Positions 7,006 through 41,045 of a stretch of DNA of 43,303 nt are shown piece after piece. The DNA comes from a virus. The translations under genes were made by a program, and so were the position numbers. The notes below the pieces were generated by a model, which saw only the letters and a program-made list of their open reading frames with translations, made no database searches and was not told where the DNA came from. The stretch is taken from IMG/VR virus record IMGVR_UViG_3300030104_003979, positions 1 through 43,303 of that record; one strand, given 5' to 3'. Every line of letters starts with the position of its first letter. Position 1 is the stretch's first letter.

Positions 7006-7022
7006 AGCAGGAGAAAATTATT

Positions 7023-7321: not shown

Positions 7322-7562
7322 AGGAAGTGGTAGAAGACTTTATACGGATGAAAATCCTAAGGATACTGTGCCTATAAAATTTGCTACTCCAGCTGACGCA
7401 AGAGCAACTGTTGCTAAAGTTAAAAAAATTAATAAACCATTCGCAAGAAAAATACAAATACTTACTGTAGGAGAACAAAGAGCTAAAGTAATGGGTAAAA
7501 CCCAAGTAGCTAATATATTCAAAAAAGGTAAGGATTCTATACGGAAACAAAGGAGGGCATAA
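7275..7562 (+). CDS. Small basic marine-phage protein (GSGRRLYTDENPKDT type)
   Basis: A 95-residue protein. ATG 7275 is chosen because the conserved part begins MAKKQDPKVGTGKKPKGSG; an upstream in-frame start at 7230 has only shadow sequence of the preceding gene. The block SGRRLYTDENPKDTVPIKFA recurs in many marine phage proteins and belongs to a domain of unknown function. A helical stretch follows (ADARATVAKVKKINKPFARK). The 3' end carries the next RBS (GGAGG). Role unknown. Confidence 0.75.
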   Translation: MAKKQDPKVGTGKKPKGSGRRLYTDENPKDTVPIKFATPADARATVAKVKKINKPFARKIQILTVGEQRAKVMGKTQVANIFKKGKDSIRKQRRA

Positions 7563-7822
7563 TGGCTTTAAGTGCAAGAACAAAAAAGACTTTAGCTGAA
7601 AAAGCAAAAAAAGCAAGAGCTAAAGGTAAAAAAGTAACAGCAGGACAACTCGCAAGAGTTTATAACAAAGGTCTCGCGGCTTATCGTACTGGACACCGTC
7701 CAGGAACTACACCTAGTCAATGGGCAATGGCTCGTGTGAACAGTGTCTTAACAGGAGGAAAAGCGGCGAAAGTAGATGCTCATATTTTTGGTAAGGGCAA
7801 AAAGAAAACAAAAAAATCATAG
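7562..7822 (+). CDS. Small basic marine-phage protein (GHRPGTTPSQWAMARVNS type)
   Basis: An 86-residue protein with a basic N-terminus (ARTKKTLAEKAKKARAKGKK), the central block YRTGHRPGTTPSQWAMARVN and the end SVLTGGKAAKVDAHIFGKGK. This central block is recurrent in marine phages next to the two preceding families. RBS GGAGG lies at 7553-7557. The fixed company of these families across phages suggests they act together, but the function is unknown. Confidence 0.72.
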   Translation: MALSARTKKTLAEKAKKARAKGKKVTAGQLARVYNKGLAAYRTGHRPGTTPSQWAMARVNSVLTGGKAAKVDAHIFGKGKKKTKKS

Positions 7823-7830
7823 GAGACAAT

Positions 7831-8532
7831 ATGCCGTATTTAGTTAGTAACATCCCTCACTTTAATTGCTGGGTGAGAAAAGAGTTTACTCATAATCATG
7901 AAAAATACAGAGGAGAATTTATACACGCTATTGCTTTTGCTGTAACAACCATACCAGACAGAAGTTTAAGTTTTCAAGTAGTGTTTACTGGATGTGAAAC
8001 TGACGATGACAAAAACCAAAAAAATATACACGGAGGAGCTATGTGGGCGAGGCTCCCTATCGCCGCTTTCGTAGGAGATTCCCCTTTTGACGAGTGGCCT
8101 GAACGTATGGAAACTCATTTAGTACAACCTTGGGACTGTAGCTCACACTATCATTCTGTCGTAAAATTTGATAGAGTTACTTCAAGTCCATGGTATTGTA
8201 AAATTAACCATGAGTTTTACATTGGTAAATATATGTTTACAATAGATTATACAGAGTCTGAAATTGCTGATGACTCGGCTCAACATAAACAGAGCCATGT
8301 AATACAGCTAACAGACGCGGGAAAGTGGACAGGTAATATTGTCGCTTTACCAAACAACAGGGTGAGGGCTACCTCTCCTGCCATGTGGGAAACTGGAGAA
8401 GGTGCTCCAGATTTCAAACCTAGCCAATGGGTGCTTACTGCTGAAAGTGATGAAAGCTATATGGATCCATCGGTAACTTTTGACAACTTATATGCAGAAA
8501 CGCAGGAGAAAAAAGATGGCAAGAAAAAGTAA
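7831..8532 (+). CDS. Conserved marine-phage protein of unknown function
   Basis: A 233-residue soluble protein beginning MPYLVSNIPHFNCWVRKEFT, with GGAMWARLPIAAFVGDSPFD, LVQPWDCSSHYHSVVKFDRV and NNRVRATSPAMWETGEGAPD. It contains several conserved-looking Trp, Cys and His residues. RBS AGGAGA lies at 7821-7826. I recognise the pattern as a family frequent in marine phages and cyanophages near structural genes, without a proven role. It is the only sizeable non-basic protein in this gene cluster. Confidence 0.65.
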   Translation: MPYLVSNIPHFNCWVRKEFTHNHEKYRGEFIHAIAFAVTTIPDRSLSFQVVFTGCETDDDKNQKNIHGGAMWARLPIAAFVGDSPFDEWPERMETHLVQPWDCSSHYHSVVKFDRVTSSPWYCKINHEFYIGKYMFTIDYTESEIADDSAQHKQSHVIQLTDAGKWTGNIVALPNNRVRATSPAMWETGEGAPDFKPSQWVLTAESDESYMDPSVTFDNLYAETQEKKDGKKK

Positions 8533-8659
8533 AAACGGCACTCGTAAAAATGCAATGGGTGGCGGTATGATGAAAAAGAAAAACTATGCTAAAGGTGGTA
8601 TGATGAATAAGAAAAATTATGCCAAAGGTGGTAAAGTTATAAAAGGACCATATAGTTAA
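8516..8659 (+). CDS. 47-residue repeat microprotein (KNYAKGG repeats)
   Basis: ATG 8516 overlaps the preceding gene by 17 nt and follows GCAGGAGA. The product has two near-identical units, MMKKKNYAKGG and MMNKKNYAKGG, after a basic lead MARKSKNGTRKNAMGGG, and ends VIKGPYS. Tiny proteins built from (M)KKxxYxxGG repeats are common in marine phages next to head-tail genes. The repeat unit is also visible in the DNA (8567-8601 and 8600-8633). The function is unknown. Confidence 0.7.
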   Translation: MARKSKNGTRKNAMGGGMMKKKNYAKGGMMNKKNYAKGGKVIKGPYS

Positions 8660-8669
8660 GGAGTAATTT

Positions 8670-9347
8670 ATGACGACTTCTGGGTCTACTAATTTTGAGC
8701 TTGATGTAGCTGATTACATAGAAGAAGCTTTTGAACGCTGTGGTTTAGAAGCACGAACAGGATATGATTTAAAAACAGCAAAAAGGTCTTTAAATCTATT
8801 ATTAGCTGATTGGGCAAATCGTGGTTTAAATAGATGGACTATTGCACAGACCACTACTTCAATCAGTTCTGGTACAGCTTCTTATAGTTTAGGTGCAGAC
8901 ACTATTGATATATTAGATGTTGTTATACGCACAGGCACAGGTACAAATCAAAATGATCAAATACTAACCAGAATTAGTAGAAACGCTTTTTTAAATATTC
9001 CAAATAAAAACACTCAAGCAAAACCTAGTCAGTTTTATGTAGATAGACAAATTACGCCTACAATAAAACTATGGCCGACACCAGACGCTAGTTATTCTAT
9101 TGTTTACGATAGACTAACTCGTATGGACGACGCAGATACTTTTATAAACACTATGGATTTACCTTTTAGGTTTTATCCTTGTTTATGTGCTGGGTTAGCT
9201 TATTACATAGCGTTGAAAAAAATGCCAGAAAGAGTGCCTTTGTTAAAAAGTGTTTATGAAGAAGAGTTTAAAAGAGCGGCAGATGAAGACAGAGATCGTG
9301 CTAGTTTAAAACTTACACCAAGCAGGGACTACTATACAAGATCATGA
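8670..9347 (+). CDS. Head-tail adaptor / tail accessory protein (P22 gp4-like)
   Basis: A 225-residue protein. The N-terminal half has VADYIEEAFERCGLEARTGYD and SLNLLLADWANRGLNRW, a helical head with beta core (TSISSGTASYSLGADTIDIL). The C-terminal part, FRFYPCLCAGLAYYIALK and LKSVYEEEFKRAADEDRDRA, is helical. This order matches P22 tail accessory factor gp4-like adaptors that attach under the portal. It precedes a second adaptor-like gene, as in SU10-like and pelagic podoviruses. RBS AAGGAG sits at 8658-8663. The portal is not in the window. Confidence 0.75.
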   Translation: MTTSGSTNFELDVADYIEEAFERCGLEARTGYDLKTAKRSLNLLLADWANRGLNRWTIAQTTTSISSGTASYSLGADTIDILDVVIRTGTGTNQNDQILTRISRNAFLNIPNKNTQAKPSQFYVDRQITPTIKLWPTPDASYSIVYDRLTRMDDADTFINTMDLPFRFYPCLCAGLAYYIALKKMPERVPLLKSVYEEEFKRAADEDRDRASLKLTPSRDYYTRS

Positions 9348-10578: not shown

Positions 10579-11022
10579 ATGGCAATAACTCAAGCAATGT
10601 GTACTTCCTTTAAAGTAGAATTACTTCAAGGAAAACACAATTTTACCGCTTCTTCAGGACATACTTTTAAATTAGCGTTGTTTACAAGTAGTGCTTCTTT
10701 AGGAGCTGATACAACAGATTATTCTACAAGTAACGAAATTTCAGGAACAGGTTATTCAGCAGGAGGTTCTGCTTTAACTTCTGTGACACCAACTTCTAGT
10801 GGAACAACTGCTTTATGTGACTTTAGTGATTTAACTTTTAGCTCAGCAACAATTACTGCCAGAGGTGCTTTGATCTACAACACAACAACTGGTGGTGGAT
10901 CTGGTACAACAGACGGAGTAATTGTTTTAGATTTCGGTGGTGATAAAAGTTCTACCGCAGGAGATTTTACTATACAATTTCCTACTGCTGACGCTTCTAA
11001 CGCGATTATTCGCATAGCGTAA
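10579..11022 (+). CDS. Beta-rich virion (tail) protein
   Basis: A 147-residue Thr/Ser/Gly/Ala-rich protein with MCTSFKVELLQGKHNFTASS, FKLALFTSSASLGADTTDYS, ALIYNTTTGGGSGTTDGVIV and TIQFPTADASNAIIRIA. The N-terminal pattern (M..FKxELLxGxHxF.....FKLALF) is frequent in marine phage and cyanophage tail proteins. It has no catalytic motif and is probably a fibre-associated or tail-surface part. RBS AAGGAG is at 10564-10569. Confidence 0.65.
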   Translation: MAITQAMCTSFKVELLQGKHNFTASSGHTFKLALFTSSASLGADTTDYSTSNEISGTGYSAGGSALTSVTPTSSGTTALCDFSDLTFSSATITARGALIYNTTTGGGSGTTDGVIVLDFGGDKSSTAGDFTIQFPTADASNAIIRIA

Positions 11023-11026
11023 CACT

Positions 11027-11515
11027 ATGTCCAATTTAGCTGGATGGGGTCGTGGTTCATGGAACGAAGGAGCATGGAACGAAGGAGTTTCAGTTAATGT
11101 TACTGGTGTTTCAGCAACAGGTTCTGTAGGAACAGTAGGTACAGAGTCTGCCTACAGTGTAAGTGGTGTTTCAGCTAATGGTTCTGTTGGAACAGTTAAT
11201 GTTTCTGTAACAGTTAGCGTAACTGGTCTTTCTGGAACCACAAGTATTAACAGTATTGTTGTTAATGCAAATGCAAATACTTCAGTAACGGGATTGTCAA
11301 TTTCCTCAAATATTGGTACTGTTACTGTAATCGGGGTTGCAACTGTAAGCGTTACTGGAGTTTCAGCCACAGGGGGTACAGGCGTAATAAATGTCTGGAA
11401 TATTATAATCCCAAGTCAAACTCCAAACTATACAGAAGTAAATCCATCACAATCAGCTAGTTGGTCTGGAGTAAGTCCATCACAATCAGCTAATTGGAAA
11501 GACAAAGTAGCATAG
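11027..11515 (+). CDS. Repeat-containing beta-rich tail protein
   Basis: A 162-residue protein beginning LAGWGRGSWNEGAWNEG. Val/Ser/Thr-rich repeats follow, VTGVSATGSVGTV, VSGVSANGSVGTV and VTGVSATGGTGVI, with shorter VTGLS units between. The C-terminal part has two PSQSAxW units (NPSQSASWSGVSPSQSANWK). The WGRGxWxEGxW start and GVSATGSVGTV repeats recur in marine phage structural proteins. It is probably an elongated fibre or collar piece. Repeat number may vary between relatives. Confidence 0.65.
   Translation: MSNLAGWGRGSWNEGAWNEGVSVNVTGVSATGSVGTVGTESAYSVSGVSANGSVGTVNVSVTVSVTGLSGTTSINSIVVNANANTSVTGLSISSNIGTVTVIGVATVSVTGVSATGGTGVINVWNIIIPSQTPNYTEVNPSQSASWSGVSPSQSANWKDKVA
11098..11391 (+). 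repeat. Degenerate ~40-bp coding repeats
   Basis: Units at about 11098-11140, 11158-11197 and 11350-11391 encode GVSATGSVGTV-like peptides and share the core GGTGTTTCAGC (GGAGTTTCAGC in the third). Partial units occur around 11218-11345. Such repeats can change copy number by slippage or recombination. Confidence 0.6.
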
Positions 11516-11524
11516 GAGTAATGA

Positions 11525-12919
11525 ATGCCAAGTAGTTTTTCAACAAATTTAGGAATAGAAAAACCAGCGACAGGAGAATTATCGGGTACTTGGGGGAACG
11601 TAACTAATTTTAATTTTGATATTTTTGATAGAATTGTAGGGTTTAAAAGTGTAACTCTATCTAATACTTCTTCTACTTTAACAGTTAGAGCAACAAGTCC
11701 AAGTTCTGGATCTAGTAATGTTCAAGACGGCATGTTTCGTGCAATTAAATTTGTAGATGGAGGAGACATTGGTGGCACAGTTACTTTAACAATTAGCCCA
11801 AATACTTCTGCTAATTTATTCTTTTTTCAAAATTCTTTAAGTGGTAGCCGAGATATTACAATAACTCAAGGCTCTGGGGCAAACGTTACAGTAACTAATG
11901 GACAAACTTCTATTGTTTATTGTGATGGTGCTGGGTCTGGAGCGGCAGTTGTTAGTATTAGTGATAATTTGAGCATGTCTAATGCTAAAATAACAGGTGG
12001 TTCACTTTCAGGTATCACTAGTTTGGTAGTTGATGATTTAACAATAAACGGTCAAGATATTTCAACAACGGCAAGTAATAAAAACATTACAGTAACTCCT
12101 CACGGTACTGGTGTTTTTGAAGTTAAAGGAAATACTAATGAAGGAACAATACAGCTTAATTGTGAAAACAATTCACATGGTGTAAAAATTAAAGCACCGC
12201 CACATTCAGCAGGTCAATCATATACTTTAACTTTACCATCTAGTATTACAAATAATTATTATTTAAAAACAGATGGTTCTGGAAACTTATCGTTTGCAGA
12301 GGTAGCAACAGAAACTAAACCAACAGTTACAGGAGTTACACCATCATCTATTGGCAATAGTGCAACATCAATCGTTATTGCAGGAACAAATTTTGTAATT
12401 ACACCTAATGTAGAATTTATTAACTCATCAGGAGTTATAACGCTACCGAATAGTATTACGAGAGATTCGGCTACACAGCTTACAGTTAATGTAACTCTAC
12501 CTACAGATGGCACATATTTTATTAGAGTTGAAAACCCTGATGGATTAGCAGCGAGATCAAGTTCTGCAATACTTACAGTATCAGACGCACCAACATGGAG
12601 TACATCTGCTGGAAGTCTTGGAAGTGTAGCAGCAGGAGATAGTGCGAGTTTTTCAGTTTCAGCATCTAGTGATAGCACAGTTGCGTATTCTGAAACTACA
12701 AGCGTTTTAACAAGCAACACTGACACACCTGCGAGTACCATGAATTTATCGCTTAACTCATCGACAGGTGCTATAACAGGAACAGCACCAGCAGCGACAA
12801 GTGAAACAACATATAACTTTACCCTACGAGCTACAGATGCAGAATCGCAAACAGCAGACAGAGCATTTAGTATAACAGTATCAGTAGGAATGAATAACTC
12901 AGCGTGTTTTAGCAATTAG
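11525..12919 (+). CDS. Tail fibre-like protein with TIG and Ig-like domains
   Basis: A 464-residue protein. The N-terminus (FSTNLGIEKPATGELSGTWG, NVTNFNFDIFDRIVG) is a pattern common to marine phage fibre proteins. The middle is beta-solenoid-like (LVVDDLTINGQDIST, HGTGVFEVKGN). Residues about 265-351 form an IPT/TIG-type Ig domain (TVTGVTPSSIGNSATSIVIA, VRVENPDG-like end). Residues about 352-460 resemble a putative-Ig (He_PIG) domain with LNSSTGAITGTAP and YNFTLRATDAESQTADRAFS. TIG and Ig-like modules commonly serve adhesion, so host-surface binding is likely. RBS AGGAG lies at 11515-11519. The receptor cannot be told. Confidence 0.75.
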   Translation: MPSSFSTNLGIEKPATGELSGTWGNVTNFNFDIFDRIVGFKSVTLSNTSSTLTVRATSPSSGSSNVQDGMFRAIKFVDGGDIGGTVTLTISPNTSANLFFFQNSLSGSRDITITQGSGANVTVTNGQTSIVYCDGAGSGAAVVSISDNLSMSNAKITGGSLSGITSLVVDDLTINGQDISTTASNKNITVTPHGTGVFEVKGNTNEGTIQLNCENNSHGVKIKAPPHSAGQSYTLTLPSSITNNYYLKTDGSGNLSFAEVATETKPTVTGVTPSSIGNSATSIVIAGTNFVITPNVEFINSSGVITLPNSITRDSATQLTVNVTLPTDGTYFIRVENPDGLAARSSSAILTVSDAPTWSTSAGSLGSVAAGDSASFSVSASSDSTVAYSETTSVLTSNTDTPASTMNLSLNSSTGAITGTAPAATSETTYNFTLRATDAESQTADRAFSITVSVGMNNSACFSN

Positions 12920-12930
12920 GAGATAATGAT

Positions 12931-14382
12931 ATGGCATACGGATATTTAACTAGAAGTTTTTCAAGCTCACCAACAAATGCAGATAAGTTTACTATTTCGT
13001 TTTGGATTAAATATGCCCATATAAGTGATTCACAAATTGCAGCATCTAACACAAATACTGCTGGTAATGGCACATGGGTTGAATTAAGAAGTGATGGCAA
13101 AATAGGATTTATAGAATACACAGGTAGTGTAACTTGGAACTTTGAAACTGAAAGAATTTTTTTAGATACAACATCTTGGTATCATATAGTTATAGCTGGA
13201 GATTCTACACAAGCATCAGATTCTAATAAAATGAAATTTTATGTAAATGGAGAACAAGTAACTTTTTCTAGTACAACTTATGCAGCAACTAATACAGATT
13301 TTAGATGGAATAAACAAATGGATAGTGGAACACCACAAGGTCATCGAATAGGTCGTTTATCTAGTGATAGTAATAATTTTGTGGGTTATTTAGCTCATTT
13401 CCATAATATTGATGGCACACAATATGCTGCATCAGATTTTGGAGAAACAGATAGTACGACAGGGGCGTGGAAACCTAAACTAAATCCAAGTGTAACTTAT
13501 GGCACTAATGGTTGGTTTTTGAAATTTGAGAATAGTGGAGCTATGGGTACAGATTCAAGTGGTAATAGTAATACATTTACTCTCACAGGAGATGTAAACC
13601 AATCTGTTACTACACCTAATAATGATTTTTGTGTATTAAATTATAATGAATGTTATGTCCCTGAAAGAGATGTTGCTATGAAGTATGGTAATACTACATG
13701 GACAGATGGTCAATCTACATCAGATGGTTTTAAAGGTGCTGTAGGAACATTAGCTACTACTAAAGGTAAATGGTATTTTGAAGTCAAACATATAGAGGGA
13801 TTGTATACTACTGTTGGGATAAGCAAAGCAAACTCTAAAGCATCTAATGAAATGATAAACACAACGTATCGTTCTCCTTTTATTGCAGGGAACGAGGGAG
13901 ATGGTTTTGGATTTCAAGCTGGTACAGCATCTCGTCTTATACAAAGAGGAGATAATACAGAAGTAGCATGGAATGATGGTAGTGGCTCGAATATAACAAG
14001 TGTTTCAGCAAACGATATTCTAATGATTGCTTATGATTTGGATGCTGGAAAAATATGGTGGGGTAGAAATGGTACATGGAATACTGTGCCAGGAAGCAGC
14101 ACAGCAACATCATCATCAGATATAGCAAGTGGCAATAATGCACACAAAACATGGACAGCTAATGGAGCATTTTTTAGACCAGCACTAGGGGTATATCAAA
14201 GAACTTATGGCAGTAGTGGAGCTAACCCTAATACTGTTTATTGTAATTTTGGAGAAGGCAGGTTTGCTAATACAGCAGTATCAAGTGGTAATGCAGATGG
14301 AGCTGGTCAAGGTTCATTTGAGTATGCACCACCTAGTGGATTTTATGCACTATGCTCAGCTAATATTAAAACTTATGGATAG
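12931..14382 (+). CDS. Tail protein with LamG-like and SPRY-like domains
   Basis: A 483-residue protein. Residues about 15-170 resemble a concanavalin A/laminin G-like fold (FTISFWIKYAHISDSQIA, TSWYHIVIAGDSTQ, MKFYVNGEQVTFSS). Residues about 270-445 resemble a SPRY-type beta-sandwich (KGKWYFEVKHIEGLYTTVGI, MIAYDLDAGKIWWGRNGTWN, FFRPALGVYQR). Both folds bind sugars or proteins on surfaces. The protein lies in a row of fibre-like genes, each with AGGAG just upstream, so it is probably part of the host-recognition apparatus. Confidence 0.75.
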   Translation: MAYGYLTRSFSSSPTNADKFTISFWIKYAHISDSQIAASNTNTAGNGTWVELRSDGKIGFIEYTGSVTWNFETERIFLDTTSWYHIVIAGDSTQASDSNKMKFYVNGEQVTFSSTTYAATNTDFRWNKQMDSGTPQGHRIGRLSSDSNNFVGYLAHFHNIDGTQYAASDFGETDSTTGAWKPKLNPSVTYGTNGWFLKFENSGAMGTDSSGNSNTFTLTGDVNQSVTTPNNDFCVLNYNECYVPERDVAMKYGNTTWTDGQSTSDGFKGAVGTLATTKGKWYFEVKHIEGLYTTVGISKANSKASNEMINTTYRSPFIAGNEGDGFGFQAGTASRLIQRGDNTEVAWNDGSGSNITSVSANDILMIAYDLDAGKIWWGRNGTWNTVPGSSTATSSSDIASGNNAHKTWTANGAFFRPALGVYQRTYGSSGANPNTVYCNFGEGRFANTAVSSGNADGAGQGSFEYAPPSGFYALCSANIKTYG

Positions 14383-29550: not shown

Positions 29551-31077
29551 ATGAAAAATCTTGCGGAAGATTTATACAAGCTATTTAAGGGGAGTGATAT
29601 TGCACATGGAACATACATTGTAAAATCTAACAGAGCCAATGATGGTAAAAAGCAAGGGACTGCAAAGGTTATAAGAGAACCCACCACTGTCGCCATGTGG
29701 GAGGAGCATTTAAAAGGAGGAACTGGTCTGGGTATTATACCCATAAGGAGTGATAACACTTGTCAGTGGGGTGCTATAGATATAGATGAATACGATGTTA
29801 GCCATAAAGATTTAGTTTTCACTTTAAGAAAAAATAAAATTCCAGCGATTGTTGGAAGAACAAAATCTGGTGGTGCTCATGTATGGATATTTTTGTCTGA
29901 GCCAGTAGAAGCTGAAGAACTACAAAGAAAAATGACAGAGTTGTCTGCGGCTCTAGGTCATTCTGGAAGTGAGATATTTCCCAAACAAACCAAAATACTA
30001 ATAGATAGAGGAGACACTGGTAATTTTCTTAACATGCCTTACCACGCAGAAAACAGAACCACACGTTATGCGTTTGACGACAATGGTGAAGCTTTATCTT
30101 TAAAAGAATTTTTAGATTATGTTCAACCTTTCATCATAACACCAAACAAGTTTCGTAAATTAAATACTGGTTTTGGCACTGATGAAAATGTTTTACAAGA
30201 TGGTCCTCCATGTTTACAGCATTTATGCAGTAAAGGGTTTGGTGAGGGCAGTAGAAACAATGCGTTATTTAATTTAGGAGTATACGCTAGAATGTCAGAT
30301 GAAGATAATTGGGAGGTAGCTGTTCAAAGATATAACATGGACTATTTAAAACCACCTTTGTCCCATAATGAAGTGGGTCTAGTAATAAGACAACTAAAGA
30401 AAAAAGATTATTTTTACAAATGTGAAGACCAACCTATAAAACCTTTTTGTGATAAACAAGTTTGTAAAACAAGGAAACATGGAGTCGGTCCCACTGGGAT
30501 AGGTAATGATATGTCGAGCTTAACTAAAATAGACGGAGACCCACCTATATGGATATTAAACGTAGACGGTGAAAGAGTTGAACTTTCAACCAATGGATTA
30601 ACTAGCCAAAACCAGTTTCAAAAAGAATGTGTTTCCCAAATCAATAAATACCCAGTAGCCATGAACCAAAGAGCTTGGCAAACGAGAATACAACTTTTAT
30701 TAGATAACTTAACCATTGTGGAAGTTCCACCAGATGCTACACTAAAAGGTGAATTTGAAGACTTGTTACATGCTTTTTGTTGTGAAAGAGCAAGAGGTGA
30801 ACAAAGAGAAGATATACTACAGGGCGTTGCTGTTTGGGTAGACGGTAAAGTTTACTTTCAAGTAAAAGACATAAAAAAGCATTTATCTGTAAACGATTTT
30901 AATCATTACACTTCTAATAAAATTACTCTACGCCTACAAGAATTAAAGGCAGAAAAGAAATTTTGGAGAGTAAAGGGGAAAGGTGTTCATGTATGGTCTA
31001 TGAACCAACAATTCTTTGAAAAAGAAGAAGGAGATATAGAACTTCCTAATCTTCCAACAGATGACGGTGTAATATAA
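29551..31077 (+). CDS. Archaeo-eukaryotic-type primase (TOTE-like AEP)
   Basis: A 508-residue primase. The AEP catalytic core shows GAIDIDEYD (Asp77, Asp79 metal ligands), SGGAHVWIF (residues 106-114), EIFPKQ (141-146) and GNFLNMPY (157-164). This order matches the primase domain described for TOTE conflict systems and related phage proteins. A PriCT-like helical region follows (about 215-290), then a Cys cluster CEDQPIKPFCDKQVCKTRKH near 291-310. The C-terminal part resembles a winged helix. It would make primers for PolA. RBS AGGAGAAAG lies behind a leader hairpin, and its stop overlaps the UvrD helicase gene start (TAATGA). Confidence 0.85.
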   Translation: MKNLAEDLYKLFKGSDIAHGTYIVKSNRANDGKKQGTAKVIREPTTVAMWEEHLKGGTGLGIIPIRSDNTCQWGAIDIDEYDVSHKDLVFTLRKNKIPAIVGRTKSGGAHVWIFLSEPVEAEELQRKMTELSAALGHSGSEIFPKQTKILIDRGDTGNFLNMPYHAENRTTRYAFDDNGEALSLKEFLDYVQPFIITPNKFRKLNTGFGTDENVLQDGPPCLQHLCSKGFGEGSRNNALFNLGVYARMSDEDNWEVAVQRYNMDYLKPPLSHNEVGLVIRQLKKKDYFYKCEDQPIKPFCDKQVCKTRKHGVGPTGIGNDMSSLTKIDGDPPIWILNVDGERVELSTNGLTSQNQFQKECVSQINKYPVAMNQRAWQTRIQLLLDNLTIVEVPPDATLKGEFEDLLHAFCCERARGEQREDILQGVAVWVDGKVYFQVKDIKKHLSVNDFNHYTSNKITLRLQELKAEKKFWRVKGKGVHVWSMNQQFFEKEEGDIELPNLPTDDGVI

Positions 31078-32988: not shown

Positions 32989-33987
32989 ATGGCACACGAA
33001 GTTGAAACAATGGCGTATGCAGGAAAAGTTCCTTGGCACGGACTAGGAAGAAAAGTTAGCGATAACATGTCTCCAGAAGAAATGTTAGTCGCGGCTCAAC
33101 TTGATTGGTCTGTTAGCAAAAGACAAGCATACACTGTTGATAAACCAGACTGTTGGAACATAATAAACCCAACAGGAGAAGCACAGTTTGTTAGATGTGA
33201 AGATCATTATTATATTGTTCGTGATTCTGACAATAAGGTGCTTTCTCACTGTAAAGACAGTTATGTACCTTTTCAAAATAAAGAAGTTATGAGCTTTTTT
33301 CAAAAATTTACAAAAGCAGGACACATGAAAATGGAAACTGCTGGAAGTTTAAAAGAAGGAAAAGATATATGGGGTTTAGCAAAACTTACAGATAGTTTTA
33401 AACTAGCAGGAGATGACCGTGTTGAAGGGTACTTACTACTAAACAATAGTCATTCAGTAGGAAAAGCTATGACAATTATGTTCACACCTATAAGAGTTGT
33501 TTGTAATAACACTCTTACAATGGCATTAAACAATGAGGGTAGTCGATTTAGAATACCACATTTACAAATGTTCGATGAAGAAATAATGAGAACAGCTGAA
33601 GAAGCTTTAGGCATTAGCAGTATTCACATGAAAAACTTTGAAGAACAATCTTTATATCTTGCTAGTAAAAAGGCAAAACAAAAAGATGTAGATAATTTTG
33701 TTGCTGAGTTATTTCAACCTACACTAATTGGTACAGATAACATGCAACAAGAGTTTAAAAACACTGCCGAGCTTGTAAGCAGAGCAATAGAAACTAGTCC
33801 TGGAGCAGGACTAAGGTCTGCAAAAGGAACTTGGTGGGGAGCTTTAAACGGTGTTACCTATGTTATGGATCATAAGAAAAAATCTAAAACTGAGGGTAAT
33901 GCTTTACACTCTGCTTGGTTTGGTTCAGGTGCGGTTACTAAAAGGAAAGCGTTGAACAAAGCATTAGAATATGCAAAGGTCGCGTAG
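32989..33987 (+). CDS. DUF932 phage/plasmid-like protein
   Basis: A 332-residue protein with the DUF932 (phage/plasmid-like TIGR03299) pattern. It begins with MAHEVETMAYAGKVPWHGLG. LVAAQLDWSVSKRQAYTV, YLLLNNSHSVGKAMTIMFTP, IRVVCNNTLTMAL and the C-terminal GTWWGALNGVTYVMDHKKK follow. The family is common in phages and plasmids, often near replication or recombination genes; its biochemical role is not settled. RBS AAAGGAG lies at 32975-32981. The 114-nt downstream gap holds a structured leader for the next gene. Confidence 0.85.
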   Translation: MAHEVETMAYAGKVPWHGLGRKVSDNMSPEEMLVAAQLDWSVSKRQAYTVDKPDCWNIINPTGEAQFVRCEDHYYIVRDSDNKVLSHCKDSYVPFQNKEVMSFFQKFTKAGHMKMETAGSLKEGKDIWGLAKLTDSFKLAGDDRVEGYLLLNNSHSVGKAMTIMFTPIRVVCNNTLTMALNNEGSRFRIPHLQMFDEEIMRTAEEALGISSIHMKNFEEQSLYLASKKAKQKDVDNFVAELFQPTLIGTDNMQQEFKNTAELVSRAIETSPGAGLRSAKGTWWGALNGVTYVMDHKKKSKTEGNALHSAWFGSGAVTKRKALNKALEYAKVA

Positions 33988-34361: not shown

Positions 34362-34622
34362 ATGAAAATTAAATTTGAAGAAATTAAAAAACAACAAGTA
34401 GACGCTATACATAAAAGAGTAAAAGCTATTGGTATTAAAGGTTTAAGATTATTACACGACCATTATTTAAAAAACACAGAGGACATAAATGTTTGTACTC
34501 TTAATGATTGTTTATGGCTTATGTCAATTAAACATGAAATAAAAACAATAAAAGAAAAATATGGAACTGGTTGTCCTGAAAAAATAGCTGAGGCACAAAG
34601 GGACGCAAAAGGAAATAAATAA
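34362..34622 (+). CDS. Small hypothetical protein
   Basis: An 86-residue basic, helical protein with CTLNDCLWLMSIKHEIKTIK and a final CPEKIAEAQRDAKGNK. Three Cys are present but not in a zinc pattern. The only ribosome-binding-like sequence is a weak GGAT. Its stop overlaps the start of the base-hypermodification gene, so the two are translationally coupled. Confidence 0.6.
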   Translation: MKIKFEEIKKQQVDAIHKRVKAIGIKGLRLLHDHYLKNTEDINVCTLNDCLWLMSIKHEIKTIKEKYGTGCPEKIAEAQRDAKGNK

Positions 34623-35518
34623 TGGATTTACAACAATCAACACAAGTAACTAATTTTTATAATTGGATAAATGAAAGACATTCTATTTACGTTCAACGAA
34701 CAGAACACCCTCTTGATCCTCCTTGGACAAAGGACGTTATACTTCAGTCTTATAAGTTTACTAACGTGTTTAGAGAACTCGACAGAACAACTAAATGGAT
34801 GAGAAAAAATTGGACAAACCCTAACGAGAATAAATCTTATTCAGAGATAATATTTAATTGTTGTTTGTTTAGAATGATAGGCACGATTGAATTTGCTGAA
34901 GATCATGGTTGGGTTTCAAATCATGAATGGGATCCAGACTATACTATAAACGTTATAGAAGACAGACTCACAGAAAACAGAAGATGTTTTACAGGTGCAT
35001 ATATAATAACTAATCAAGGATTAAAAGCTAAGAAATCTCAAGTAGTGGTAAATCATTTTTTAAAACCAGTTTGGAAAGACCGTAACAAACTTGCAGAATG
35101 TACAGAAACAAATTCCCTGCAAGAGTTACATAAAAAATTTGCAGAATATAAAGGTTGGGGCGGAGGTGGTTTTATGGCTTACGAGGTTGTGACTGATTTA
35201 AATCACACCCCAGTTTTAGAAAAAGCAACAGATAGATACACTTGGGCAAACGCAGGTCCTGGAGCGATTCGTGGACTTAACAGGTTGCTAGGAAGAAAGT
35301 TAAATAAAAGCATTTCTCAAAAACAAGCAAATAAAGAAATGCACTATCTCATGAATCAAAAAAATACTTATTGTTTAAAACATGTTCCATTGTCAGAAAT
35401 AGACATGAGAGCAATAGAACATAGTTTATGTGAATGGGATAAATACGAAAGAGTACGGTTAAATCAAGGCAGACCTAGAAGTAAGTTTAATGCCATCAAT
35501 GCTAAACCATTACTCTAG
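34622..35518 (+). CDS. DNA base hypermodification protein (5-hmdU kinase-helical / aGPT-Pplase-like)
   Basis: A 298-residue protein. The N-terminal block FYNWINERHSIYVQR ... PWTKDVILQSYKFTNVFREL (residues 12-53) matches the family defined for phage thymine hypermodification (5-hmdU DNA kinase helical domain and alpha-glutamyl/putrescinyl-thymine pyrophosphorylase relatives). A C-terminal block has GGGGFMAYEVVTDLNHTPVL and WANAGPGAIRGLNRLLGR. In known phages this class acts on 5-hydroxymethyluracil in DNA and leads to bulky adducts that resist host nucleases. No P-loop kinase domain is fused. Next to it lie a glycosyltransferase and a thymidylate-synthase homologue, which supports the assignment. 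The exact reaction is uncertain. Confidence 0.75.
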   Translation: MDLQQSTQVTNFYNWINERHSIYVQRTEHPLDPPWTKDVILQSYKFTNVFRELDRTTKWMRKNWTNPNENKSYSEIIFNCCLFRMIGTIEFAEDHGWVSNHEWDPDYTINVIEDRLTENRRCFTGAYIITNQGLKAKKSQVVVNHFLKPVWKDRNKLAECTETNSLQELHKKFAEYKGWGGGGFMAYEVVTDLNHTPVLEKATDRYTWANAGPGAIRGLNRLLGRKLNKSISQKQANKEMHYLMNQKNTYCLKHVPLSEIDMRAIEHSLCEWDKYERVRLNQGRPRSKFNAINAKPLL

Positions 35519-35563
35519 AAATAAGATGATTAATAAAGAATAGTAATTGACTTAAACTTTTCG

Positions 35564-35569
35564 TATAAT
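35564..35569 (+). promoter_or_regulatory. Candidate -10 element before glycosyltransferase gene
   Basis: TATAAT at 35564-35569 lies 33 bases before the start codon. TTGACT at 35547-35552 is upstream, but the spacing is only 11 bp, too short for a normal sigma70 pair. A weak or activator-dependent promoter is possible. Confidence 0.4.
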
Positions 35570-35601
35570 TAAACATTAATTAAAAACAAAAGGAGCGTAG
35601 A

Positions 35602-36873
35602 ATGAAGTTCCTCATGACTTTATTTCAGATACAAGATTACGGAGGTATTATAAACCATGCAGAGCATCTTGCTTGTGGGCTAAAAGAACTTGGTCATACA
35701 GTGGATTTTCGTATGCTTGTGCCTAAAGACAAAATAGTTTCAAGACGTGTGGCACAACCAAAAGATATATATGAATATCGTACACTAGGCACAGGATATA
35801 AATTTCACCAAGCTCGAGGTTGGTTTAATCTTCCAAAAACACCTTACCTAAATTCTTATCATAGAAAACTTTTTAAAGAAAAATGCAGTGAGTATGATGC
35901 AATTTTATGGCACATACCAGTGCCAACAATGAGCAAAGAAAATAAAGGTGTAGACCAATGGTTAGATTTATACGATCACGGTACAAAAAACATAGCAATT
36001 ATACACGACGGTAACATGCCTGAGCTTTACCCTCACATGTTAAAAGTTATAAAGCATTTTGATTCTTGTGTTTGTGTTCATGAGTCTGCTTTTAATTCTT
36101 CAGAGGTTTTACCTCTACCAAGAAAATTAATTGTAAACCCATTTAAAACTCAAGACTACCCTGAATCTTTACCTTTTCATAAACGCAATGGATTGACAGC
36201 AGTGCAAGTCTTTAAAGGTTGGAAAAGAATGGATAGTTTAATAAGAGCTATTCCATATATACTTCCTGACCAACGCAAAATTATAGGTGGTGAAGGAATA
36301 GAATACAGATACATGACCAGCAAAGATAAATGCAAAGATAAATACTTTTATGAAAACGGTTCAAGGATATGGAATGTTGCTTTGCAATACGGAATGGAAC
36401 ATATTGGTACAGTTCCTAATGAAAAAGTTTTAGAAACATTAAAAGAGGTAAAGCTACAAGTAGATCCCAGTTATAGTAAAAAGTATAGTGAATTTGGAGC
36501 ACACTTTAATAGAACAACCATAGAGGCTATAATCTATGGGGCGGTTCCAGTTGCAACAGACTGGGGTATGAAAAACAGTAAAATTTTCACAGCAGGACAA
36601 AACTACATTGAAGTTCCAGCAGGATGTAGTAGTAAAACATTTGCAGAAATTGTTAATGATGGTTTAACAAATCCAACTTTATGGCAAAAAATTGTAGACA
36701 ACAATTATGATTTAGTCCAAATGTTTGACCAAAAAACAGTTGCTAGTGAGTATGTTTCATTGGTTGAAGGAAAAAGTAATACAATAATAGGAAAACCAAG
36801 CGAAAAAACCATTGCAAAATGCAATAAAAACTTAGATTTCTTCTCTGTGGGGCATGTCGACTATGCCATGTAA
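35602..36873 (+). CDS. GT-B fold glycosyltransferase (GT4-like)
   Basis: A 423-residue glycosyltransferase with two Rossmann-like domains. The N-terminus reads MKFLMTLFQIQDYGGIINHA (Gly-Gly loop at 14-15) followed by AEHLACGLKELGHTVDF. A hinge region has QVFKGWKRMDSLIRAIPYIL. The C-terminal nucleotide-sugar part near 296-321 has SEFGAHFNRTTIEAIIYGAV, with the Glu expected in GT4-like EX7E motifs. RBS AAAGGAG is at 35589-35595. Its place between a base-hypermodification gene and a thymidylate-synthase homologue suggests that it adds a sugar to a hydroxymethylated base in DNA. It could instead alter a host surface glycan. Confidence 0.78.
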   Translation: MKFLMTLFQIQDYGGIINHAEHLACGLKELGHTVDFRMLVPKDKIVSRRVAQPKDIYEYRTLGTGYKFHQARGWFNLPKTPYLNSYHRKLFKEKCSEYDAILWHIPVPTMSKENKGVDQWLDLYDHGTKNIAIIHDGNMPELYPHMLKVIKHFDSCVCVHESAFNSSEVLPLPRKLIVNPFKTQDYPESLPFHKRNGLTAVQVFKGWKRMDSLIRAIPYILPDQRKIIGGEGIEYRYMTSKDKCKDKYFYENGSRIWNVALQYGMEHIGTVPNEKVLETLKEVKLQVDPSYSKKYSEFGAHFNRTTIEAIIYGAVPVATDWGMKNSKIFTAGQNYIEVPAGCSSKTFAEIVNDGLTNPTLWQKIVDNNYDLVQMFDQKTVASEYVSLVEGKSNTIIGKPSEKTIAKCNKNLDFFSVGHVDYAM

Positions 36874-36887
36874 GTCACAAAATGCTA

Positions 36888-36911
36888 GGGTGCTATGGTA
36901 TACCAACACCC
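36888..36911 (+). promoter_or_regulatory. Hairpin before the thymidylate-synthase homologue
   Basis: GGGTG 36888-36892 pairs with CACCC 36907-36911, with the palindrome TGGTATACCA (36896-36905) in the loop. It lies between the glycosyltransferase stop and the RBS at 36928-36933. The core GGTATACC recurs twice in the non-coding region at 41.1-41.3 kb. A regulatory or protein-binding role is possible. Confidence 0.4.
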
Positions 36912-36936
36912 AAAAAACAGGCAAAATGGGGGAAAT

Positions 36937-37917
36937 ATGCACTCGGTTTTTGTAAGAAATGTAAGCGAAGCTCTCTATAAAGGCGTAAATGGTCTATATA
37001 GCTATGGTAGAGAAGTAAAAACTAGAAATGGTTTAGCTTTAGAATTTAAAGCTCCTGTTATTACAGAATACAGTCACCCATCAGAAAAAGTTTTATTTTA
37101 CCCAGAAAGAGACGCTAACCCTTTTTTCCATTTGATGGAAGCTTTCTGGATGTTAGCAGGAAGAAATGATGTAGAGTGGATTAGTCAGTTTAACGGTAGG
37201 ATAAATAACTATAGCGATGACGGTAAAACTTTTCACGGTGCTTATGGTTACCGATGGAAAAACTGGTTTGGAAAAGACCAATTACAAGAATGCTTTTTAA
37301 GGTTGTCTACTTACGAAAACGACAGAAGAGTAGTTCTTACTATGTGGGATCCAAAAACTGATTTAGTTCTTTCTAATGATGGCAGAGACTACCCTTGCAA
37401 TACTCAAATATTTTTTTGGCGTAGAGACGAAAGGTTACACATGTCTATTATAAACCGTAGTAATGATATGATATGGGGAGCTTATGGAGCTAATGCAGTT
37501 CACATGGCAGTTTTACAAGAGTACATGGCAGGAATGCTAAGAATACAAGTTGGAAAAATGTATCAGTTTTCTAATAATCTTCATGCTTATGTAGAAGTAT
37601 TAGAAAAAATTAAAAATATAAAAGACGATTATGAAAATTATCTTACCATAGGCGATGATCATGGTCAGTATGATCCCGCACCTTTACTAACTCATCCCCA
37701 TTCTTTTGACAAAGAACTAAAGGAATGGTTTCAAGCAAGTGAAAATCGTACTGACTATGAAAATATTTTTTTAGGAGTAACAGCTACACCTATGAGACAC
37801 GCATGGGAATTATATAAATCAAAAAATTTAATTAAAGCAATACAGGTCGCAAAAACAATTAACGACAGAGCATGGCGAAAGGCATGTGTTGAATGGTTAC
37901 AAAGGAGGCAAAAGTGA
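36937..37917 (+). CDS. Thymidylate synthase homologue (possible dUMP hydroxymethylase)
   Basis: A 326-residue ThyA-superfamily enzyme. ATG 36937 is chosen because GGGGG lies upstream at the right distance; ATG 36895 overlaps a hairpin and adds a non-family N-terminus. Visible residues are the entry Glu in FFHLMEAFWMLAGRNDV, FHGAYGYRWKNW, the active-site Cys154 in DYPCNTQIFF, the phosphate-binding NRSND (173-177) and LHAY (His216, Tyr218). The dUMP-specificity region reads GAYGANAVH, unlike GLPFN in ordinary ThyA. This divergence and the neighbours suggest a base-modifying role, making hydroxymethyl-dUMP, rather than plain dTMP synthesis. Plain TMP synthesis remains possible. Confidence 0.82.
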   Translation: MHSVFVRNVSEALYKGVNGLYSYGREVKTRNGLALEFKAPVITEYSHPSEKVLFYPERDANPFFHLMEAFWMLAGRNDVEWISQFNGRINNYSDDGKTFHGAYGYRWKNWFGKDQLQECFLRLSTYENDRRVVLTMWDPKTDLVLSNDGRDYPCNTQIFFWRRDERLHMSIINRSNDMIWGAYGANAVHMAVLQEYMAGMLRIQVGKMYQFSNNLHAYVEVLEKIKNIKDDYENYLTIGDDHGQYDPAPLLTHPHSFDKELKEWFQASENRTDYENIFLGVTATPMRHAWELYKSKNLIKAIQVAKTINDRAWRKACVEWLQRRQK

Positions 37918-38204
37918 CTAAAGAAAAGTTTTTAGAAAATTTAAAAGTTATCGCTGAAAACGATACTGAAAGTTTATTAGACGCACAACGTTCTTATGGT
38001 GATAGTTGGAAAAAGCGTGGTGGAGTTGGGGCTTTTATGATGTTAGCTCGTAAGTGGGACAGAATAGAAAACCAAGTTCAAGAAACTAATTATGATATTT
38101 TATCAGCATGTAGGTCAGACACTAGCGATAGTGGTATAATAGATGATATAAGAGACTTGCGTAGGTATTTATTACTTGTAGAAGAAGAGGTAACAGAAAA
38201 GTGA
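37914..38204 (+). CDS. DUF1599-like (nucleotide modification associated) small protein
   Basis: A 96-residue helical protein. GTG 37914 overlaps the preceding stop (GTGA) and sits six bases after AGGAGG at 37903-37908, so it is preferred over ATG 37893. The block SYGDSWKKRGGVGAFMMLAR with KWDRIENQV, and later DDIRDLRRYLLLVEEEV, resembles DUF1599-type proteins predicted to be associated with nucleotide modification and distantly MazG-like. Coupling to the thymidylate-synthase homologue fits a role in the nucleotide pool. Family call is moderate. Confidence 0.6.
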   Translation: MTKEKFLENLKVIAENDTESLLDAQRSYGDSWKKRGGVGAFMMLARKWDRIENQVQETNYDILSACRSDTSDSGIIDDIRDLRRYLLLVEEEVTEK

Positions 38205-38422
38205 AAAACGCTGAAAAAAGAAAATATACTATTTGCTGTACAATAGAATATACAAATGTCCAAAAAATAGAAGCCGAAAATATTAGAGAAGCTATCGATA
38301 AAGCAGAAAATAATATAAAATTCGATAGAAACCCATTAACTCAAAATTTCAAAATTTGTGATAAACATGTTTACGATTTTACAAATTATGTCGACGGAAG
38401 GAAAGAATACTACGACGAGTAA
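38201..38422 (+). CDS. Small hypothetical protein
   Basis: A 73-residue protein, MKNAEKRKYTICCTIEYTNV with a helix ENIREAIDKAENNIKF and an aromatic, acidic end. It begins with GTG overlapping the preceding stop (GTGA). The beta-helix-beta look is like small phage domains of unknown role. No family recognised. Confidence 0.55.
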   Translation: MKNAEKRKYTICCTIEYTNVQKIEAENIREAIDKAENNIKFDRNPLTQNFKICDKHVYDFTNYVDGRKEYYDE

Positions 38423-38447
38423 ATCAGTTTAAGGAAAAACATCTTAC

Positions 38448-38618
38448 ATGGTATATAAACAACAAAATAAAATTAATTTAGATGATAAAACAAATGCTAT
38501 TTGTGAATGTGGAAAAGTGAAAAAAATTTTAACGTTTCGTAACTTAAAAAATAAATGGCCGATTTGTGAGTGTAAACAACCTATGAGAATTACTAGAAAT
38601 GCAGATACCCCTGTTTAA
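38448..38618 (+). CDS. Short zinc-ribbon protein
   Basis: A 56-residue protein with paired CxC motifs: AICECGKVKK (Cys19, Cys21) and WPICECKQPM (Cys40, Cys42), spaced as in a zinc ribbon. AAGGA lies at 38431-38435 upstream. It overlaps the start of the DNA polymerase gene by 20 nt, so the two are probably translationally coupled. A DNA-binding or polymerase-accessory role is inferred only from position. Confidence 0.6.
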   Translation: MVYKQQNKINLDDKTNAICECGKVKKILTFRNLKNKWPICECKQPMRITRNADTPV

Positions 38619-40494
38619 ACCACCTACAGAGTGGGTTATGCCAGACGGTTACCCAGATCTATCCACAGAAAAAGAAATATGTATTGATTTAGAAACTAAA
38701 GACCCTGACCTCTTAACTATGGGTAGCGGTTGGGCAAGAAAACATGGACACATTATAGGAGTTGCTGTTGCTTGTACTAAAGGTGAATGGTATTTTCCTG
38801 TTCGTCATGAAATAGGTTCTAACTTAGATGTAAAAATAACGATGAACTGGTTAAGAGATGTATGTAGTATAGATAGGAAATATATATTCCATAATGCTAC
38901 TTATGATGTAGGTTGGTTATTGACAGAAAATATTGAAATAAAAGGTCAGATTATAGATACAATGGTAGTAGCTCCATTATTAGACGAGAATCGTTTTAGC
39001 TATGCTCTTAATTCTTTGTGTAAAGATTATTTACAAGACCGTAAAAGCGAAAAAGAACTTTATGAGGCGGCTGAGGCATTTGGGATTAATGCAAAAAGTG
39101 AGATGTATAAACTTCCTGCTTCTTATGTGGGTTGCTATGCGGAACAAGATGCTCGTTTAACACTTAGACTTTGGCAACATTTCAAACCTTTGCTTACCAA
39201 AGAAGATATAAATGATATTTTTGAACTAGAATTAAAAGTGTTAAAAACAATTATACCCATGAGACAAAAGGGCGTAAGAATAGATATAAATAAAGCAGAA
39301 AAAATAAAAGAAGAGCTCCTAACAAAAGAGAAAAAGTTAATTAAAAATGTTAAACAAAAAACGGGAGTTAATGTTGAAATTTGGTCAGCTGAAAGCGTAG
39401 CTCAAGTTTTTGATAAATTAAACTTGACTTATAGTAAAACAGAAAAGACCCAAGCCCCAAGTTTCACCAAAGGATTTTTAACTAATCACCCTCACGAAGT
39501 ACCCCAAATGATTGTTCAGGCAAGAGAATACCAAAAAGCTCGGTCTGCTTTTATAGACACAATTTTAAAACATCAGGTAAATGGTCGCATACATGCTGAG
39601 TTACATCCTCTTCGTAGTGATGACGGTGGTACAGTAACAGGAAGATTTAGTTACAGTAACCCAAACTTGCAACAGATTCCAGCTCGGCATGGTGAAATAG
39701 GTCCAATGATTCGTAGCTTGTTTTTACCAGAAGAAGACACTCTATGGGGTGCATTTGACTACAATAGCCAAGAACCACGCATAGTGGTGCATTATTCACA
39801 ATTGATGGGGTTTCAAGGGGCAGAAGATTTTGCTCAACAATACAACGAAAACCCATACACCGATTTTCATCAGATGGCGGCAGACATTGTGAACGTGCCG
39901 AGAAAACAAGCTAAAGATATAAACTTAGGATTATTCTATGGCATGGGGACTAAAAAACTCGCGGCTTCTCTAGGTCTTGACTTTGAAGAAGCACAAGAAT
40001 TGTTTTCTATCTACCATGAAAAAGTGCCTTTTGTGCGACAACTTCATGAGTATTGTTCTAACCGTGCAACCAGTAAAGGAGTTATCCGCACCTTGTTAGG
40101 AAGAAGATGTAGGTTTGATAAATGGGAGCCAAACAAGTATGGAGTATGGAAACCCATGACATACAAAGAAGCATACAACGAACATGGTCCTGCAATCAAA
40201 AGAGCTTTTACTTACAAAGCTTTAAATAAATTGATACAAGGGTCTGCCGCAGATCAAACAAAAATGGCGATGGTAGCTCTTGCCGAAGAAGGAATATTAC
40301 CCATGATACAAGTTCACGATGAATTAGACATTTCCGTAGAAAATGAAACTCAAACAAAAAGAATAAAAGAAATTATGGAAACTTGCGTAGATTTAAAAGT
40401 TCCGAGTGTTGTAGACGCTGAGGTAGGTTTAAATTGGGGAGAGGCTAAACAATCATTTGACAACTGTAAAGAATTATGGAAAACGAAAAGTTAG
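38599..40494 (+). CDS. polA: Family A DNA polymerase with 3'-5' exonuclease
   Basis: A 631-residue DNA polymerase I-type enzyme without the 5' nuclease domain. Exonuclease motifs are DLETK (Asp30, Glu32), NATYDVGW (Asp103) and YAEQDARLT (Asp184). Polymerase motif A is FDYNSQEPR (Asp387), the O helix is RKQAKDINLGLFYG (Arg435, Lys439, Tyr447), and motif C is VHDE (His573-Glu575). The residue equal to E. coli Phe762 is Leu443, the variant reported as common in marine virioplankton. All catalytic residues are present. It overlaps genes on both sides. It is likely the replicative polymerase and may use modified dNTPs. Confidence 0.93.
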   Translation: MQIPLFKPPTEWVMPDGYPDLSTEKEICIDLETKDPDLLTMGSGWARKHGHIIGVAVACTKGEWYFPVRHEIGSNLDVKITMNWLRDVCSIDRKYIFHNATYDVGWLLTENIEIKGQIIDTMVVAPLLDENRFSYALNSLCKDYLQDRKSEKELYEAAEAFGINAKSEMYKLPASYVGCYAEQDARLTLRLWQHFKPLLTKEDINDIFELELKVLKTIIPMRQKGVRIDINKAEKIKEELLTKEKKLIKNVKQKTGVNVEIWSAESVAQVFDKLNLTYSKTEKTQAPSFTKGFLTNHPHEVPQMIVQAREYQKARSAFIDTILKHQVNGRIHAELHPLRSDDGGTVTGRFSYSNPNLQQIPARHGEIGPMIRSLFLPEEDTLWGAFDYNSQEPRIVVHYSQLMGFQGAEDFAQQYNENPYTDFHQMAADIVNVPRKQAKDINLGLFYGMGTKKLAASLGLDFEEAQELFSIYHEKVPFVRQLHEYCSNRATSKGVIRTLLGRRCRFDKWEPNKYGVWKPMTYKEAYNEHGPAIKRAFTYKALNKLIQGSAADQTKMAMVALAEEGILPMIQVHDELDISVENETQTKRIKEIMETCVDLKVPSVVDAEVGLNWGEAKQSFDNCKELWKTKS

Positions 40495-41045
40495 AATTAT
40501 TACAAAAAAGACTCAGGGGCGGTAATGTCTTACGTTATCATACTCGCCCTGAAATAATGGACGGTCAAAATGTCGCGGCTCACACTTGGAGAGCTGTTGT
40601 TATTCTGCATACTTTGTTTCCTTATGTGAGTATAAATGCTGTTTTATATATGCTTTACCACGATGTTGCAGAATTTGAAACAGGGGACATGCCCGCGACA
40701 ACAAAATGGAAGTACGATAAACTCTCTGAGTTAATGAACCAAGTAGAATCCGACTACGAAAAACAGCTAGGCATAGGGTCTTCTTGTATAGAAGTAACTG
40801 AAAAAGAAAAGAAATTATGTGATATATCTGACAAATTAGAACTTGTTTTACATTGTCACCATTTATTAAAACAAGGGAACACCCAAGCTGAAGACGTTTT
40901 TGTAAGAGGTTACATTTACCTGAGAACAAAATACAAAGATGATCCTAGTTTTAAAATAGTGATTCCAATTTTAGAAGAATTAGTTCGCACAAATCCTAGG
41001 TCAGAAACTTTACTCGCCAGTATAAATAAAATTTACTCTACTTGA
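40476..41045 (+). CDS. HD-domain nucleotide phosphohydrolase (YfbR-like)
   Basis: A 189-residue HD-domain protein. Key residues are Arg20 and His22 (VLRYHTRP), His36 (AAHTWRA), His62-Asp63 (MLYHDVAEFETGDMPA) with Glu66 and Asp71, and a later metal Asp near 116-119 (CDISDKLEL). The pattern RxHTRPE...VAxHT...HDxxExxTGD resembles the deoxynucleotide 5'-phosphatase YfbR and related dNTP hydrolases of phages. It probably removes unwanted deoxynucleotides to favour modified ones, or recycles host DNA. It overlaps the polA stop by 19 nt. Substrate cannot be read from the sequence. Confidence 0.82.
   Translation: MENEKLELLQKRLRGGNVLRYHTRPEIMDGQNVAAHTWRAVVILHTLFPYVSINAVLYMLYHDVAEFETGDMPATTKWKYDKLSELMNQVESDYEKQLGIGSSCIEVTEKEKKLCDISDKLELVLHCHHLLKQGNTQAEDVFVRGYIYLRTKYKDDPSFKIVIPILEELVRTNPRSETLLASINKIYST

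Follow-up and report, generated by a model that had tools for sequence, protein, structure and literature searches.

A putative thymine-hypermodification cassette with a swappable glycosyltransferase gene in a marine podovirus related to HTVC023P-type pelagiphages

Phages of the M6/YuA type (Mesyanzhinovviridae) carry a thymidine-hypermodification cluster and contain 5-(2-aminoethyl)deoxyuridine. In the phages M6, ViI and phiW-14, 5-hydroxymethyldeoxyuridine (5hmdU) is incorporated and then becomes the substrate of a 5hmdU DNA kinase (PMC6449724). According to a statement from 2019, phages were not known to contain glucosylated 5hmdU (PMC6449724); phage SP-15 contains a glucosylated but different modified uracil (PMC5977210). 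For marine viruses, a 2022 study describes a pair of a thymidylate synthase and an aG/PT-PPlase1 protein near PolA in clades V, VIII and IX of the HTVC023P-type pelagiphages and, in some pelagiphage genomes, a nucleotidase and a putative glucosyltransferase in the same region, which are interpreted by means of the M6 system (PMC9599517).

Here, we describe a related gene cassette in the virus record IMGVR_UViG_3300030104_003979, of which the entire 43,303 bases were analyzed (referred to as the window). A hypermodification protein, a glycosyltransferase, a ThyA homolog, PolA and an HD-domain protein had been suggested for positions 34622–41045 in an original prediction made from the sequence alone, and all of them are present on the + strand. 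We regard it as probable that they form a thymine-hypermodification cassette of a marine podovirus related to HTVC023P-type pelagiphages, and that, at its end, glycosylation takes the place of kinase and amine chemistry. The phage thus probably replaces thymine with 5-hydroxymethyluracil and subsequently adds a sugar, using a glycosyltransferase where known phages use a kinase.

Gene content and the missing kinase

The closest annotated clusters are found in Pseudomonas phage M6, Stenotrophomonas phage Sonora and Pseudanabaena phage Pam3. Their genes are arranged in the order ADDT (an amino-acid:DNA transferase), 5hmdU kinase, HMUDK_hel, Nmad5, ThyA-type hydroxymethylase, HD-domain protein (M6 and Pam3) and PolA, with ADDT a few genes further upstream in M6. 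The window resembles M6/YuA in having an HMUDK_hel protein (hereafter HEL; 35% identical to M6 ORF055), a ThyA-type hydroxymethylase (42% identical to that of M6, 42–44% to the M6 and Sonora homologs), an HD-domain protein and PolA in one neighborhood. In contrast to M6/YuA, however, 5hmdU kinase and ADDT are absent, and a glycosyltransferase gene occupies the position of M6 Nmad5. M6 also has threonine-dehydratase-like and photolyase-like genes in the vicinity of HEL; neither was encountered in the related marine loci.

The absence of a kinase from the window, already noticed in the original prediction, was examined by profile searches of whole records, comprising 39 marine records including the window (several of them 55–69 kb long) and M6, Sonora and Pam3 as controls. 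The 5hmdU kinase (PF18748) was detected in none of the 39 marine records, but in all three control phages, and the same distribution (0 of 39 versus 3 of 3) was obtained for ADDT (PF18724) above the cut-off. This supports the proposal that a glycosyltransferase replaces the kinase. A kinase hidden elsewhere in the genome was considered and rejected, as none was found in the 39 records of up to 69 kb, which may nonetheless be incomplete. Judged by its genes, the cassette corresponds to the thymidine-hypermodification cluster of M6/YuA from which 5hmdU kinase and amino-acid transferase are missing.

Exchange of glycosyltransferase genes at one slot

The glycosyltransferase gene (35602–36873, + strand; 423 amino acids; PF00534 Glycos_transf_1, 2.2e-7, above the cut-off) is located between HEL (34622–35518) and the ThyA-fold gene (36895–37917) and is proposed to encode a 5hmdU:DNA glycosyltransferase. 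To compare this position, 80 HEL-bearing viral loci were fetched. Their gene order is nearly constant, and the partner gene could be read in 73 loci, which include many near-identical ones and do not represent a count of independent events. The slot contains the GT-B family of the window in 27 loci, with the same GT-B relocated approx. 7 kb upstream in two, a TAGT glycosyltransferase together with a SPASM radical-SAM protein in 27, a second GT-B family in 13 and a fourth protein family in four loci. TAGT is a known family of DNA-base glycosyltransferases (PHROG 842; PMC13390438). Pfam gives no match for the second GT-B family, but profile comparison relates it to the first one with 96.5% probability (E = 7e-10), whereas unrelated families scored near zero. 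Proteins of the fourth family (332–338 amino acids; L079 at 10874–11872, L080, L081 and L082) have no recognizable relatives, and profile comparison found no relation to the glycosyltransferases.

The most informative case is a set of near-identical phages, L062/L063 and L064/L065, among which both GT-B families occur. L062 and L065 are 98.7% identical in HEL, 95.4% in ThyA and 98.0% in PolA, yet the GT-B families in their slots differ. At the DNA level, L062 matches L064 with 96.6% identity up to L062:10883, and the match resumes at L062:11854; the gap corresponds to the glycosyltransferase gene of L062 (10879–11850). Hence, a glycosyltransferase gene has been swapped for one of the other GT-B family almost exactly at the gene ends between near-identical phages. 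No other observation argues as strongly that the slot determines one step of a pathway and that both GT-B families would do the same kind of job. From these comparisons, the glycosyltransferase gene is a swappable module, a property beyond what could be seen in the original prediction, and the sugar probably changes between phages.

Linkage was also examined from the other side, starting from glycosyltransferase profiles alone. The loci recovered have a ThyA hydroxymethylase adjoining the glycosyltransferase or, in the two relocated cases, approx. 7 kb away; one 4-kb contig ends within the glycosyltransferase itself. The linkage persists down to approx. 30% glycosyltransferase identity, on other phage backbones and in other gene orders (L155–L157). 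Overall, linkage of the cassette genes is conserved far beyond chance, and the connection between the glycosyltransferase and the other genes, as originally suggested, is upheld by searches which lead back to the hydroxymethylase.

Several further details of the slot were recorded. In L007, the TAGT glycosyltransferase and the SPASM radical-SAM protein are encoded at 6970–7752 and 7706–8737. In the TAGT loci (L007 and 26 more), the accompanying hydroxymethylase has a uracil-type Asn, although TAGT is known from phages with 5-hydroxymethylcytosine (5hmC). In L026, the slot gene of the second GT-B family is followed by an additional gene for an FkbM-type methyltransferase (11991–12728), whose substrate could be a sugar.

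The AlphaFold model of the window's glycosyltransferase has a GT-B fold (predicted local distance difference test, pLDDT, 84). A Foldseek search against PDB gave PimA (3e-13), BshA and HepE as best matches, with T4 alpha-glucosyltransferase close behind (1e-11); the T4 hits include entries with hydroxymethyluracil (HMU) DNA. The model suggests a retaining, nucleotide-sugar-dependent enzyme, but since many GT4 enzymes match the fold equally well, the structure fixes neither acceptor nor sugar. The C-terminal donor-site motif is conserved, and the motifs FK-WKR and RTT-E are invariant. Ratios of nonsynonymous to synonymous substitutions (dN/dS) are 0.17–0.19 for the glycosyltransferase and 0.06–0.24 across HEL, glycosyltransferase and ThyA, i.e., all three genes are under purifying selection.

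A glycosyltransferase of this fold could also act elsewhere, on host surface polysaccharides or virion proteins, while the pathway itself would end at 5hmdU or at a HEL-dependent change; its gene would then simply be located within the replication cluster. The similarity to GT4 enzymes acting on lipids and small molecules would be compatible with such a role, and phage glycosyltransferases are discussed as possible modifiers of DNA or protein in PMC9599517. Nevertheless, searches from the glycosyltransferase side connect it to the hydroxymethylase across distant backbones, unrelated families including the DNA-glycosyltransferase family TAGT fill the same slot, and two GT-B families are exchanged there gene for gene. 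We therefore consider an activity apart from DNA unlikely, although it is the best surviving of the alternatives.

HEL and the ThyA-fold enzyme

HEL (298 amino acids) belongs to the HMUDK_hel/aGPT-Pplase1 family (PF18723, 1.4e-50) and has no fused partner. It contains the blocks FYNWINERH, FTNVFREL and AGPGAIRGLNRL, by which it had been assigned to hypermodification proteins in the first place, and the profile match bears out this assignment. The protein has many invariant residues, and its dN/dS is 0.17–0.24. Its AlphaFold model is helical (pLDDT 90.5). In a fold search, its two best hits, both weak and suggestive at most, were to a queuine salvage enzyme and to a 3-methyladenine DNA glycosylase. 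Further, the match of the window to ADDT (PF18724) below the cut-off comes from HEL, pointing to a distant homology between HEL and ADDT. As a role, recognition of 5hmdU in DNA as partner of a transferase is proposed.

Alternatively, HEL might itself catalyze a further, kinase-independent change at 5hmdU, and the glycosyltransferase would decorate the product, so that the base would not be a simple glycosyl-5hmdU. The apparent homology to ADDT together with the invariant residues fits a catalyst, and a more complex base would agree with the radical-SAM proteins sharing the slot in 27 loci and with the FkbM methyltransferase in one locus. On the other hand, a separate kinase beside HEL supplies the chemistry in M6-like phages. 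Furthermore, the complete, 40-kb circular phage MW202897 (L003) has TAGT, hydroxymethylase and HD genes at 11204–13502, while HMUDK_hel is absent from the whole record, which indicates that HEL is not always required alongside a glycosyltransferase. A catalytic HEL appears slightly less likely still than a glycosyltransferase acting elsewhere.

The ThyA-fold protein matches PF00303 (Thymidylat_synt, 1.4e-19) and phrog_5131 (8e-103). Its open reading frame has 340 codons from the first ATG; alignment to relatives, which start at Met15 (36937), makes this methionine the likely start and yields 326 amino acids, the length given in the original prediction. In an alignment of the sequences of the window, M6, Sonora, Pam3, a ViI relative, T4 gp42 and E. 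coli ThyA, the catalytic Cys (Cys168), the phosphate-binding Arg and the Arg-Ser-x-Asp substrate motif are all kept in the window enzyme. The pyrimidine-specificity residue is Asn (Asn200), as in M6 and ViI-type enzymes, compared to Asp in T4 gp42; Asn177 is associated with dUMP and Asp with dCMP (PMC8670742). Of 79 copies surveyed, 77 have the Asn motif, and in the other two the motif could not be located. The equivalent of His147 is Asn, and the C-terminal tail of thymidylate synthases is missing, both likewise in M6, Sonora and Pam3.

In a maximum-likelihood tree, six thymidylate synthases are separated from the hydroxymethylases with a support of 98/99, and the window's homolog falls with the M6, Sonora and Pam3 hydroxymethylases, the position within the hydroxymethylase branch being weakly resolved. 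T4 gp42 and the ViI-type sequence have very long branches and an unsure placement. Branch and residues together favor an interpretation of the enzyme as a dUMP hydroxymethylase.

Two other activities were weighed. If the enzyme acted on dCMP, the phage DNA would contain glycosylated 5hmC like that of T4, and both the origin of TAGT and T4-type glucosyltransferases from 5hmC systems (PMC13390438) and the best PDB sequence match of the protein, a CMP hydroxymethylase, could be taken this way. However, the residue at the specificity position is shared with M6 and the ViI relative (Asn) and differs from the Asp of T4 gp42, the closest relatives are M6-type enzymes, and the Pfam name of the HEL partner family links that family to 5hmdU; owing to the Asn, a T4-like 5hmC system was rejected, and we rate it as highly improbable. 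Least likely of all is an ordinary thymidylate synthase boosting dTTP without any modification, which would agree with the annotation as thymidylate synthase in many phages, but was rejected on the basis of the tree and the residues (loss of the C-terminal tail, replacement of His147), with the constant linkage to HEL and glycosyltransferase also speaking against it.

Proposed pathway, genomic context and comparison with known systems

Gene content, residues, linkage and the gene exchange are shown by the sequences; from these we infer the following pathway, including what each enzyme does, how the steps follow one another and what part HEL plays. The ThyA-fold enzyme would convert dUMP to 5-hydroxymethyl-dUMP. 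The HD-domain protein (40476–41045, + strand; YfbR-like PF12917, 4.5e-10), a 5′-deoxynucleotidase-like protein also matching phrog_6047 (3e-33) and phrog_7076 (dATP triphosphohydrolase, 1e-12), is proposed to lower the competing dTMP/dTTP pool, while host kinases would bring 5hmdUMP to 5hmdUTP. The phage PolA (38599–40494, + strand; PF00476, 1.2e-63; PF01612, 4e-11), a family A DNA polymerase with 3′–5′ exonuclease, would then place 5hmdU opposite A. HEL may recognize or flip 5hmdU in the DNA and offer its hydroxyl to the transferase, as its relatives are thought to do for the 5hmdU kinase in M6 and ViI. Finally, the GT-B enzyme would transfer a sugar from a nucleotide-sugar donor to this hydroxyl, giving 5-(glycosyloxymethyl)deoxyuridine, similar to base J of trypanosomes. 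The likely benefit would be an escape from host restriction and repair enzymes.

Some observations weigh against a pathway ending in a glycosylated base. The fold search with the HEL model gave no significant match, so that its role as recognition partner is putative, and MW202897 combines a glycosyltransferase with a hydroxymethylase without any HEL. The glycosyltransferase model fits PimA, BshA and HepE, all of GT4, no worse than the DNA glucosyltransferase of T4. In four of the 73 loci, the protein in the slot has no demonstrable relation to glycosyltransferases, and the 73 loci, with near-duplicates among them, are not independent. Further, the window is a fragment of a genome.

The wider proposal reaches further than the cassette itself and is held with less confidence, at somewhat better than even chances: a large group of marine phages would have glycosylated 5-hydroxymethyluracil, a counterpart of base J, and HEL would be a general 5hmdU-recognition subunit that works with a kinase in M6 and ViI and with one or another exchangeable glycosyltransferase here, and a one-gene swap would change the genome chemistry. 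If true, thymines decorated with sugars, the product of a short and modular pathway, would occur in viruses related to SAR11-infecting phages that are among the most abundant of the ocean. Owing to the natural swaps, different sugars could readily be compared on otherwise near-identical phages, a new set of candidate DNA-modifying glycosyltransferases would be available, and enzymatic or sequencing methods used on marine viromes could be affected by such bases.

The capsid protein of the window is approx. 75% identical to those of 023Pt_psg01 and HTVC023P (70–76% across the group), and its PolA is 49–55% identical to those of 023Pt_psg01 (55%), HTVC023P and HTVC027P. Based on these two proteins, the virus is a marine podovirus related to HTVC023P-type pelagiphages. 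Its modification genes are placed between helicase and PolA, a gap holding at most three small genes in the cultured HTVC023P and HTVC027P as well as in 023Pt_psg01 and DSL-LC04, and HMUDK_hel was not found in these four phages.

Two small genes on the + strand separate the ThyA-fold gene from PolA. ORF103 (37893–38204) encodes a homolog of Pam3_54, annotated as “nucleotide modification” (phmmer, 1.9e-25), and occurs in nearly every related cassette; a Pfam search gave no significant match. ORF73 (38201–38422) matches phrog_9642 weakly (0.0038). A DUF1599-like neighbor, as originally suggested, was not recovered, since nothing in the stretch matches DUF1599 in Pfam. A DUF932 gene (32989–33987; 3.7e-49) is found just upstream of the cassette here and in most related loci. 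Elsewhere, the window encodes a primase (29551–31077) with the archaeo-eukaryotic primase domain of TOTE conflict systems (PF22548, 4e-20) and, in the structural region, a Cpn10/GroES-like co-chaperonin (1742–2215). A Z-genome containing 2-aminoadenine was considered because of the HD-domain protein and the similarity of PolA to the model of DpoZ, the aminoadenine-incorporating polymerase. This idea was dropped, as the match reached 350 bits at a cut-off of 500 and PurZ was not noticed among the window's open reading frames, though no profile search aimed at PurZ was made.

Regarding the literature, the novelty expected in the original prediction holds in part. The ThyA and HEL pair near PolA and a glucosyltransferase in the same region are known from pelagiphages (PMC9599517); the passages of this study that were consulted describe neither absence of a kinase nor an interchangeable glycosyltransferase slot nor glycosyl-5hmdU. 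A literature search, the scope of which did not include Lee 2018, Iyer 2013 and Pyle 2024, likewise found no swappable slot, kinase loss or phage glycosyl-5hmdU; within this scope, the loss of the kinase, the swappable slot and the prediction of glycosyl-5hmdU appear to be new.

Among the more distant systems, ViI-type Salmonella phages (Kuttervirus) also encode an HMUDK_hel protein, and their hydroxymethylase shares the Asn spacing. They differ, however, in the annotated P-loop nucleotide kinase beside the hydroxymethylase, and belong to another phage group with another gene order. T4 (gp42 with alpha- and beta-glucosyltransferase) and the TAGT phages likewise combine a ThyA-fold hydroxymethylase with a DNA-base glycosyltransferase, and the GT-B fold of the window's enzyme resembles that of T4 alpha-glucosyltransferase. 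In contrast to the 5hmC system of T4, the window has the uracil-type Asn instead of Asp and HEL as an additional partner. Finally, the predicted end product corresponds to that of trypanosomes, base J, which is a glycosylated 5-hydroxymethyluracil as well. Base J, however, is formed from T within the DNA by JBP1/2 and subsequently JGT (PMC6449724), whereas in the phage 5hmdU would be made as a nucleotide.

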